Shown: piece by piece, positions 53,032-56,253 of the stretch | Layout: the number at the start of each line of letters is the position of its first letter | Numbering within the stretch: the first letter of the stretch is position 1 | NCBI GenBank assembly: GCA_004144865.1 | Contig: SEAY01000028.1 | Span: forward strand, 1-64,000 | Reading direction: 5' to 3' | Origin: Comamonadaceae bacterium | GTDB lineage: Bacteria > Pseudomonadota > Gammaproteobacteria > Burkholderiales > Burkholderiaceae_C | DNA length: 64,000 nucleotides | Position numbers and translations under genes: made by a program | Notes under the pieces: model-generated | Databases searched by the model: none | Told to the model about the DNA's origin: nothing | The model's input: only the letters and a program-made list of their open reading frames with translations

Positions 53032-53034
53032 TCC

Positions 53035-53135
53035 GTCGTTCCCGCGCAGGCGGGAACCCAGGGCATCCAGCGAAGCGGCCTTCGGGCCGCTTTTCCTTTT
53101 GGAAGCCCTGGATCCCCGCCTGCGCGGGGATGACG
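53035..53135. repeat. paired inverted REP-like repeats flanking a terminator
   Basis: Left unit GTCGTTCCCGCGCAGGCGGGAACCCAGGGC and right unit GCCCTGGATCCCCGCCTGCGCGGGGATGACG flank the hppA terminator. It lies between convergent hppA and the tetR gene. Confidence 0.85.
53072..53100 (+). terminator. rho-independent terminator of hppA
   Basis: AGCGGCC-TTCG-GGCCGCT with a UUCG tetraloop, followed by TTTCCTTTT. Strong and well placed, 40 bases after the stop. Confidence 0.9.
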
Positions 53136-53187: not shown

Positions 53188-53769
53188 CTACCCCCGGTGC
53201 GCCACCGCCTTCACCAACGCCGTCGCCGTGCTCGTGAGCCGCGGCAATTCATCCACCTTGCCGTCCTCGATCGCCTGCAACACCAGTTCGTGGATGCCGC
53301 CCACCACCGCCATGGCGAGATCCGGCGTCACGTCGCGCACCACCGCCACCATGTAGTCGGCGATCTCCTGGTTCACGCGCCTGCGCGCGGCCAGGCCCTC
53401 CGGGCCCAGGTGCAGGATCTCGATGAACAGGGTGCGCATCAGCGCCGGATTGGAGGCCATGGCGCCCAGGTAGGCGTGCAGCGCGTGTTCGAGCTGCTCC
53501 TCCCAGTTGCGCGCGGGATCGATCTCCTGCCGCAGCACCTTCAGCGCGTTGTGGCTTGCCGCCTCGTAGAGCGCCACCAGGCAATCGGCCTTGGTCGGGA
53601 AATGCTCGTAGAAAGTGCGGCGCGACACGCTCGCCTCGCGCACGACGTCGGCGATGGTGGTGTCGCCGTAGCCCTTCTGCGCCATGGCCACGGCCATGCC
53701 TTCCAGCAACCGGCTGCGATGCTGGTGGGCACTGGTATCCGGCTCGAGCGTGGCGAAATCCGAGTTCAT
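53188..53769 (-). CDS. TetR/AcrR-family transcriptional regulator
   Basis: 193 residues from MNSDFATLEPD at 53769; the track fuses it to a long antisense frame of the next genes. The N-terminal helix-turn-helix (YGDTTIADVVREASVSRRTFYEHFPTKADCL, about residues 35-65) is followed by a ligand-binding helical domain with LFIEILHLGPEG. It is divergent from a PF10118 protein gene. Two matching palindromes between the starts are likely its operators. The ligand is unknown. Confidence 0.9.
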   Translation of the reverse strand: MNSDFATLEPDTSAHQHRSRLLEGMAVAMAQKGYGDTTIADVVREASVSRRTFYEHFPTKADCLVALYEAASHNALKVLRQEIDPARNWEEQLEHALHAYLGAMASNPALMRTLFIEILHLGPEGLAARRRVNQEIADYMVAVVRDVTPDLAMAVVGGIHELVLQAIEDGKVDELPRLTSTATALVKAVAHRG

Positions 53770-53779
53770 GCGGGCCCCA

Positions 53780-53795
53780 GGTACTTGACAGTACC
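53780..53795. promoter_or_regulatory. TetR operator 1
   Basis: GGTACTTGACAGTACC, perfect 6-base arms GGTACT/AGTACC with a 4-base centre. It contains a consensus -35 hexamer, TTGACA, on the plus strand, so repressor binding would block RNA polymerase. Confidence 0.75.
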
Positions 53796-53813
53796 AACTC
53801 CTGGCGTCACGAT

Positions 53814-53829
53814 GGTACGACTTCGTACC
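53814..53829. promoter_or_regulatory. TetR operator 2
   Basis: GGTACGACTTCGTACC, perfect 6-base arms GGTACG/CGTACC with a 4-base centre. Same half-site GGTAC and same spacing as operator 1, 34 bases centre to centre. It is just before the downstream gene start. Confidence 0.75.
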
Positions 53830-53853: not shown

Positions 53854-54687
53854 ATGACCGATCTCGTCGTCCGCCGCCTCCTCGTCGACATGGAGCAGCC
53901 GATCGCCCGGCACTGGTGCGCGGGCGACGCTTTCCGCACCGCGCTGTTCAACGCGCTGTCGATGAGCTTCCCGTTCGGCGAGCAGTTCTTCATCGATTCG
54001 GTGCGCAACGGCTTCAAGGAATTGCCGCCGGAAAAGCAGGAGCGGTTCCGCGCCGAGGTGCAGGGCTTCGTCGGCCAGGAAGCGACGCACCGGCGGCTGC
54101 ACGCCCTCTACAACGCACACCTGGAGAAACAGGGGCTGGTGAACTCCTGGGAAGCGCGCGCCCGCGAGCGCCTGCAGCTGCTGCAAGGCCAGGACGTGCG
54201 CCACTGGCTGGGCATCACCGCGGCCAACGAGCACTTCACCGCGATCTTCGCGGACTTCATGCTGCACAACGCCGATCTCCTGGGCGACCAGGACGAGCGC
54301 CTGAAGACGCTGTGGCTGTGGCATAGCGCCGAGGAGTCGGAGCACAAGTGCACCGCCTTCGACCTGTACCAAGCCCTGGGCGGCAGCCACGAATGGCGCG
54401 TGCGCTGGATGCGGCGCGTCACGATGTTCTTCCTCACCGACGCCCTGCGCCAGACCGTGAGCAACCTGCGGCGCGACGGCACGCTGTGGAAGTGGAGCAC
54501 CTGGAGGAGCGGCGCCAGCTATTTGTTCGGCAAGCGCGGGCTGGTCACGCTCACGTACAAGCCCTGGAAGGAATACTTCCGGCGCGACTTCCATCCGATG
54601 CAGCAGGATTCGAGCGCGTCGGTGCGCTGGCTGGAAACGCACGGCGACAAGTTCGTTCCGGTGGGGCAATCCGTCGTTCCCGCGTAG
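53854..54687 (+). CDS. PF10118-type predicted metal-dependent hydrolase
   Basis: 277 residues from the ATG at 53854. His/Glu-rich motifs resemble a di-iron helical bundle (VGQEATHRRLH; ANEHFTAIFADF; WHSAEESEHKCTAFDLYQ). The usual label is predicted metal-dependent hydrolase, but the ExxH pattern would also suit a ferritin-like oxygenase. It is under likely TetR control. The last residues, SVVPA, and the TAG stop are encoded by a REP-like repeat, so the natural C-terminus may once have been different. Confidence 0.82.
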   Translation: MTDLVVRRLLVDMEQPIARHWCAGDAFRTALFNALSMSFPFGEQFFIDSVRNGFKELPPEKQERFRAEVQGFVGQEATHRRLHALYNAHLEKQGLVNSWEARARERLQLLQGQDVRHWLGITAANEHFTAIFADFMLHNADLLGDQDERLKTLWLWHSAEESEHKCTAFDLYQALGGSHEWRVRWMRRVTMFFLTDALRQTVSNLRRDGTLWKWSTWRSGASYLFGKRGLVTLTYKPWKEYFRRDFHPMQQDSSASVRWLETHGDKFVPVGQSVVPA

Positions 54688-54797
54688 GCGGGAACCCAGG
54701 GCGTTCGGCGCAGCGCAACGCGCCGCTTCTCGGGAAGCCCTGGATTCCCGCCTTCGCGGGAATGACGGGAGATTCCCGCCTTCGCGGGAATGACGGG
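54671..54797. repeat. REP-like repeats: inverted pair plus one extra tandem copy
   Basis: Left unit CCGTCGTTCCCGCGTAGGCGGGAACCCAGGGCG overlaps the end of the preceding gene. The right unit CCCTGGATTCCCGCCTTCGCGGGAATGACGGG is followed by a further tandem half (GATTCCCGCCTTCGCGGGAATGACGGGG). Confidence 0.85.
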
Positions 54798-54819: not shown

Positions 54820-56253
54820 ATGCAGCACCATTTCATCGCCAACGCCCCGGTGCGCTCGACCTCCGAGCGCACGCTGCCCGTCATCGATCCGTCCGACGGC
54901 CAGCCCTACGACACCATCCAGCGCGGCACCGCGGAGGACATCGACGCCGCGGTGCAGGCCGCTCGCAAGTGCTTCGAAGGCCCCTGGAGCCGCCTGAGCG
55001 CCGCCGAGCGCGGCCGGCTGCTGATGCGCCTGTCGATGAAAGTCTCCGAGCACGCGGACGAACTCGCCGCCATCGAGCAGCGCGATTGCGGCAAGCCCAC
55101 CAAGCAGGCGAAGGCCGACGCCGTGGCCCTCGCCCGCTACTTCGAGTTCTACGCCGGCGCCTGCGACAAGCTGCACGGCGAGACGTTGCCCTACCAGGAC
55201 GGCTACACGGTGCTCACCTGGCGCGAGCCGCACGGCGTGACCGGCCACGTGATTCCCTGGAACTACCCGATGCAGATCTTCGGGCGCAGCGTCGGCGGCG
55301 CGCTGGCCGCCGGCAACGTGTCGGTGGTGAAGCCTTCCGAGGATGCGTGCCTGTCGCTGATCCGCGTGGCGCAGCTGGCCGCCGAAGTCGGCTTCCCCGC
55401 CGGCGCCATCAACATCGTGACGGGCTACGGCCATGAAGTGGGCGACGCGCTCGCGCGCCATCCCGGCATCGACCACATCAGCTTCACCGGCAGCCCGCGC
55501 GTGGGCACGCTGATCCAGCAGGTGGCGGCCGAGCGGCACTGCCCCGTCACGCTGGAGTTGGGCGGCAAGAGCCCGCAGATCGTCTTTGCCGATGCGGACA
55601 TCGACCAGGTGCTGCCCGTGGTGATCAATGCCATCGTGCAGAACGCCGGCCAGACCTGCTCCGCCGGCTCGCGCCTGCTGGTGGAACAGAGCCTCTACGA
55701 GCCGCTGCTGGAGCGCCTGGGCGAGGCTTTCACGCGCCTGCGCGTCGGCCCGGCGCAGATGGACCTGGACGTCGGCCCCCTGATCCGCCAGAGCCAGCAG
55801 CAGCGCGTGTGGGACTTCCTCTCCGACGCGCAGCATGCCGGCATCTCCATGGTGGCGCAGGGCACGATCGTCGAGGAGGCGCCGGAGTCCGGCTTCTACC
55901 AGGCCCCCACCCTGCTGCGCGACGTGCCCATCGCGCACCGGCTGGCGCAGGAGGAAGTGTTCGGCCCGGTGCTGGCGGCCATGAGCTTCCGGGACGAGGA
56001 CCATGCCGTGGAACTCGCCAACGCCACGCACTTCGGCCTGGTGGCCGGCGTGTGGACGCGCGACGGCGGCCGCCAGCTGCGCATGGCGCGCCGCGTGAAG
56101 AGCGGCCAGGTCTTCATCAACAACTACGGCGCCGGCGGCGGCGTGGAACTGCCTTTCGGCGGGGTGAAGTCCTCGGGCTATGGGCGCGAGAAGGGCTTCG
56201 AGGCCTTGTATGGGTTCACGACGCTGAAGACGGTGGCGATCAAGCACGGGTGA
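54820..56253 (+). CDS. NAD(P)-dependent aldehyde dehydrogenase
   Basis: 477 residues from the ATG at 54820 (MQHHFIANAPVRST); the track's 54790 start lies in a repeat. It has the ALDH motifs: WNYPMQIFGRSVGGALAAGNVSVVKPSE (cofactor), FTGSPRVGT, LELGGKSP (general-base Glu), GQTCSAGSRLLV (catalytic Cys) and EVFGPVL. It resembles betaine/aminobutyraldehyde-type ALDHs, but the substrate cannot be told. It is downstream of the TetR-controlled gene, separated by repeats, so co-regulation is uncertain. Confidence 0.92.
   Translation: MQHHFIANAPVRSTSERTLPVIDPSDGQPYDTIQRGTAEDIDAAVQAARKCFEGPWSRLSAAERGRLLMRLSMKVSEHADELAAIEQRDCGKPTKQAKADAVALARYFEFYAGACDKLHGETLPYQDGYTVLTWREPHGVTGHVIPWNYPMQIFGRSVGGALAAGNVSVVKPSEDACLSLIRVAQLAAEVGFPAGAINIVTGYGHEVGDALARHPGIDHISFTGSPRVGTLIQQVAAERHCPVTLELGGKSPQIVFADADIDQVLPVVINAIVQNAGQTCSAGSRLLVEQSLYEPLLERLGEAFTRLRVGPAQMDLDVGPLIRQSQQQRVWDFLSDAQHAGISMVAQGTIVEEAPESGFYQAPTLLRDVPIAHRLAQEEVFGPVLAAMSFRDEDHAVELANATHFGLVAGVWTRDGGRQLRMARRVKSGQVFINNYGAGGGVELPFGGVKSSGYGREKGFEALYGFTTLKTVAIKHG

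Follow-up and report, generated by a model that had tools for sequence, protein, structure and literature searches.

The tetR-PF10118 locus

The window, by which we mean the whole 64,000-nt stretch of DNA analysed, belongs to a Ramlibacter genome of 4.35 Mb. Within it, a gene for a TetR-family repressor and a gene for a PF10118 protein are transcribed away from each other, and two palindromes lie in the gap between them (Table 1). The first-pass annotation had described this divergent arrangement, and domain matches and coordinates bear it out: the repressor scores 46.5 bits against PF00440 (cutoff 24) and the PF10118 protein 249 bits against its own model (cutoff 33). An aldehyde dehydrogenase gene follows and possibly shares a transcription unit with the PF10118 gene. 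It is found directly 3' of PF10118 in nearly all Ramlibacter loci examined that have enough flanking sequence. In one genome (G029) PF10118 is absent, and tetR and a single GGTAC-N6-GTACC site face the aldehyde dehydrogenase gene directly.

Table 1. Positions of the genes, operators and promoter elements in the window
Feature	Position	Strand	Remarks
tetR-family repressor gene	53188..53769	-	193 aa; PF00440 TetR_N, E=3e-12; divergent from PF10118 gene
Operator 1, GGTACTTGACAGTACC	53780..53795		exact match; encloses -35 hexamer
-35 hexamer TTGACA of PF10118 promoter	53785..53790	+	inside operator 1; near-invariant centre
-10 CACGAT	53808..53813	+	family consensus CANNAT; spacer 17; abuts operator 2
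Operator 2, GGTACGACTTCGTACC	53814..53829		exact match; over expected transcription start
PF10118 gene ("predicted metal-dependent hydrolase")	53854..54687	+	PF10118, E=6e-74
Aldehyde dehydrogenase gene	54820..56253	+	downstream of PF10118 gene; PF00171, E=9e-155

A REP/BIME-like inverted repeat (TCCGTCGTTCCCGCG...GGGAATGACG) also occurs on either side of the tetR-PF10118 pair, once at 53032-53135 and once at 54670-54796; the second copy sits between PF10118 and the aldehyde dehydrogenase gene.

Two palindromes in the intergenic gap

Both palindromes are present exactly where they had been placed, and the first contains TTGACA, as reported. They are separated by 18 bases, so the earlier figure of 34 bases apart holds from start to start; 10 bp separate operator 1 from the tetR start codon. 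Two details of the earlier description stand only in part. The perfect 6-base arms are real in this genome, but the unit that is conserved among relatives is GGTAC-N6-GTACC; similarly, the "same 4-base centre" is shared in length but not in sequence (TGAC versus ACTT). Exact GGTAC-N6-GTACC occurs four times in the genome, twice in the tetR-PF10118 gap and nowhere else in the window. If two background sites per genome are assumed, two sites would fall in one particular 85-bp gap with a probability of about 8e-10.

Conservation of the operators and of the PF10118 promoter

Relatives of tetR were sought in 60 genus and 401 family genomes. A match is found in 39 of the former and 62 of the latter, in 30 genera, and 80 loci from the family in which tetR faces PF10118 were used as a footprint set. 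At least one exact GGTAC-N6-GTACC site is kept in all 80; these loci share descent, so the counts are not independent events. Operator 1 is present as GGTACTTGANNGTACC, with TTGA inside, in 62 loci, and an exact site is present at the position of operator 2 in 71, the remaining nine having operator 1 only. In the 18 loci without an exact GGTACTTGANNGTACC-type operator 1, another exact site is always kept, and TTGACA is still found in 13. Intergenic columns outside the operators and the -10 are close to random (mostly 0-0.4 bit), and therefore conservation of the operators does not simply reflect recent ancestry. The operator flanks favour T or C before the site and A after it.

Within the sites, the invariance of the arms is partly a product of selection, since sites were picked by their exact arms. 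The centre of operator 1 usually reads TTGACA (of the 62 loci, 61 have the C and 55 the final A), whereas that of operator 2 is nearly free, with position 6/11 complementary in just 29 of 71 sites. Together, these observations indicate that the repressor most likely reads GGTAC-N6-GTACC rather than 6-base arms, and that the centre of operator 1 is most likely kept by RNA polymerase, as a -35 box. The locus family thus offers a natural experiment, the same half-sites being placed around a fixed -35 centre and around a free one, so that the demands of polymerase and of repressor on the DNA become separable.

A consensus promoter scan of the locus returns no promoter; the -10 sequence CACGAT is too weak for such a scan. 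In the relatives, positions A2, A5 and T6 of the -10 are conserved at a spacer of 17, and this spacer is the best one for a CANNAT -10 in 58 of 62 loci. The conserved centre and the position of the -10 across the orthologous loci support the earlier suggestion that the first palindrome lies over a true -35. Transcription of PF10118 would then start near 53820, at a position covered by operator 2.

The start of operator 2 lies 34 to 49 bp beyond that of operator 1, and in no locus does operator 2 overlap the -10. The spacings fall mainly into two ranges, 34-37 and 42-46 (p ~3e-8 in a naive Rayleigh test), but we do not claim helical phasing, as little of the signal is left once every distance is given a single count (R = 0.15), and related genomes dominate it.

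Association of the operators with tetR

The occurrence of the 16-mer GGTACTTGACAGTACC follows that of tetR. Within the family it is present in 42 of 62 tetR-positive genomes and in none of 339 tetR-negative ones (Fisher 6e-42, with relatedness not corrected), and 42 of its 43 copies adjoin tetR; outside the family it is present in none of the genomes searched at the order and class level. The lone copy away from tetR (L181) has a paired site 43 bp apart, and the pair precedes a second PF10118 gene, divergent to a gene for a MAPEG protein. This second PF10118 gene is likely a trans target of the TetR protein, and the recurrence of such a pair supports the earlier prediction that the sites control the neighbouring PF10118 gene.

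Where tetR has been lost, the operators are lost as well. In nine Ramlibacter genomes the genes for an H+-PPase, PF10118 and the aldehyde dehydrogenase lie in order with tetR absent; none of these loci contains an exact GGTAC-N6-GTACC, and none has a site with fewer than three mismatches in the 230 bp upstream. Three tetR-less genomes (L152, L153 and L154) carry another near-palindrome, GATACACGTGTGTATG or GATACACTTGTGTACG, about 65-80 bp upstream of PF10118; in the one of them checked (L182), no TetR gene was seen nearby.

More distant TetR proteins (35-57% identity) face genes for an outer membrane efflux protein, an alpha/beta hydrolase or a flavin monooxygenase, and GGTAC-N6-GTACC is found beside each. 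In the efflux-protein and alpha/beta-hydrolase groups the sites are paired, with TTGAC inside one. Minicystis rosea (Myxococcota; L014) also has a distant TetR (30%) opposite a PF10118 gene (31-33%), with no GGTAC sites there.

These distributions bear directly on whether the sites serve a different, unlinked regulator that acts at the PF10118 promoter. TetR genes need not bind beside themselves, and the genome contains two more exact sites, both unpaired. However, GGTACTTGACAGTACC is restricted to genomes with this TetR and nearly always adjoins its gene, the operators disappear along with tetR though the neighbouring genes stay, and TetR relatives that face other genes adjoin the same motif. 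We consider an unlinked regulator very unlikely.

A genome search for GGTAC-N6-GTACC had been proposed as a way to define the regulon; with four exact sites, two of them at the locus, the regulon looks local. A wide regulon is rejected on the number of off-locus sites, which is near the background (20 tetR-less genomes of 59 in the genus hold 9 exact sites, about 0.45 each). One of the two unpaired sites, GGTACTGCCATGTACC (L006:2005-2020; G000:C198:21204), precedes a polyhydroxyalkanoate synthase-like gene by 77 bp, and the other, GGTACGGGCTCGTACC (L005:2008-2023; G000:C86:19907), falls in the gap before an anthranilate synthase-like gene; either may be there by chance.

The repressor and its proposed mode of action

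An AF2 model of the repressor (pLDDT 90) has nine helices in a TetR fold and gives 378 PDB matches at E<=0.001. The closest solved folds are those of Bacillus FadR (PDB 3whb, 3whc and 5gpa; TM 0.67-0.75), and the best NCBIfam match is the FadR equivalog NF053878, at 43.1 bits against a cutoff of 200. From this likeness of fold, which goes with an identity to Bacillus FadR of 15-17%, the ligand is perhaps a fatty acyl compound.

The footprint in all 80 loci, the co-occurrence with tetR and the co-loss all support the reading that both palindromes serve as operators for the adjacent TetR, which would repress the PF10118 promoter by occlusion; we put its probability at roughly 0.9. The first-pass annotation is thus very likely correct in its essentials. 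A TetR dimer bound to operator 1 would cover the -35 hexamer, and one bound to operator 2 would cover the start of transcription from the PF10118 promoter, which may also serve the aldehyde dehydrogenase gene. RNA polymerase would thus be barred from binding or from starting until a ligand frees the repressor. With operator 1 immediately ahead of the tetR start codon, the repressor would also limit its own synthesis. This autoregulation, which is probable, is argued from geometry because no conserved tetR promoter is resolved in the column conservation of the orthologous intergenic regions.

TetR proteins can also activate, and operators at the -35 are usable by activators. Nevertheless, there is little chance that this protein serves the PF10118 promoter as an activator or in both capacities: operators over the -35 and over the start region are in blocking positions, the -35 is already consensus, and a locus without tetR (L144) still retains TTGACA. 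Finally, the leader RNA of PF10118 folds with z = -3.6, with the palindrome included as a stem, but that operator 2 is an RNA hairpin in the leader rather than a DNA site is extremely improbable, as the 71 exact sites compared show unchanging 5-base arms and no compensatory changes (in part a consequence of choosing exact arms), the inner position 6/11 is seldom complementary, every locus has an exact site, and operator 1, which lies upstream of where the transcript begins, carries the same motif.

If the palindromes are operators of the adjacent TetR, then operator, promoter and target become fixed for a repressor family that spans about 30 genera.

The PF10118 protein

Residues E43, E76xxH79, E126 and E161xxH164 are invariant in 26 PF10118 sequences, one of them at 33% identity, and make up the E, ExxH, E, ExxH ligand set of ferritin-like di-metal carboxylate proteins. 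In a structural model (pLDDT 93) all of the ligand residues fall in predicted helices. A sequence search of solved structures finds no relative; the top Foldseek matches are R2 and R2lox proteins, with a probability of up to 0.99 but E>=0.07 and a TM of about 0.5. Rather than a hydrolase, the modelled protein is probably an oxidase of the ferritin-like di-metal type.

R2lox carries a bound fatty acid (PMC6399176), and alkane monooxygenase function has been reported for one such protein (PMC10867098). By analogy, a reasonable guess is that the PF10118 oxidase and the aldehyde dehydrogenase act jointly on a fatty compound. A broader proposal can be made tentatively, at somewhat less than even odds: that an as yet undescribed TetR/GGTAC-N6-GTACC switch, clade-wide in the Comamonadaceae-type family, controls PF10118 proteins, and that these misnamed "hydrolases" are in truth R2lox-like di-metal oxidases which, together with an aldehyde dehydrogenase, act on fatty or hydrophobic compounds. 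The locus also links PF10118 to a regulator with a fold suggestive of lipid-like ligands, which provides a handle on its function.

Comparison with known systems

In our literature search, no description of a GGTAC-N6-GTACC operator was found; PF10118 was met only in the context of lanthipeptide proteases, and COG3687 was not met.

The best-known counterpart is TetR/tetA, in which an autoregulated repressor of the TetR/AcrR type lies divergent to its target gene with two tet operators. The present locus shares the divergent regulator and target, the two intergenic operators, the TetR fold and, as we propose, promoter occlusion; it differs in its operator, GGTAC-N6-GTACC, and in its target, PF10118. 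Bacillus FadR, an acyl-CoA-responsive TetR repressor, is closest in fold but distant in sequence, and acyl-CoA sensing is putative here. FadP, a TetR-type regulator predicted to govern fatty-acid degradation in Burkholderia, Ralstonia and Comamonadaceae, has on average 17.9 target genes in each genome (PMC5343134). The present repressor belongs to the same family of regulators and the same bacterial group, but its paired sites are found at its own locus, plus one extra pair in one other genome, and identity with FadP is rejected on the number of exact sites. With R2lox-type oxidases, PF10118 has the ferritin-type E/ExxH/E/ExxH pattern in common, and the match in fold is a lead rather than evidence of membership. 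The switch is ordinary in kind, of a well known type, and new in detail.
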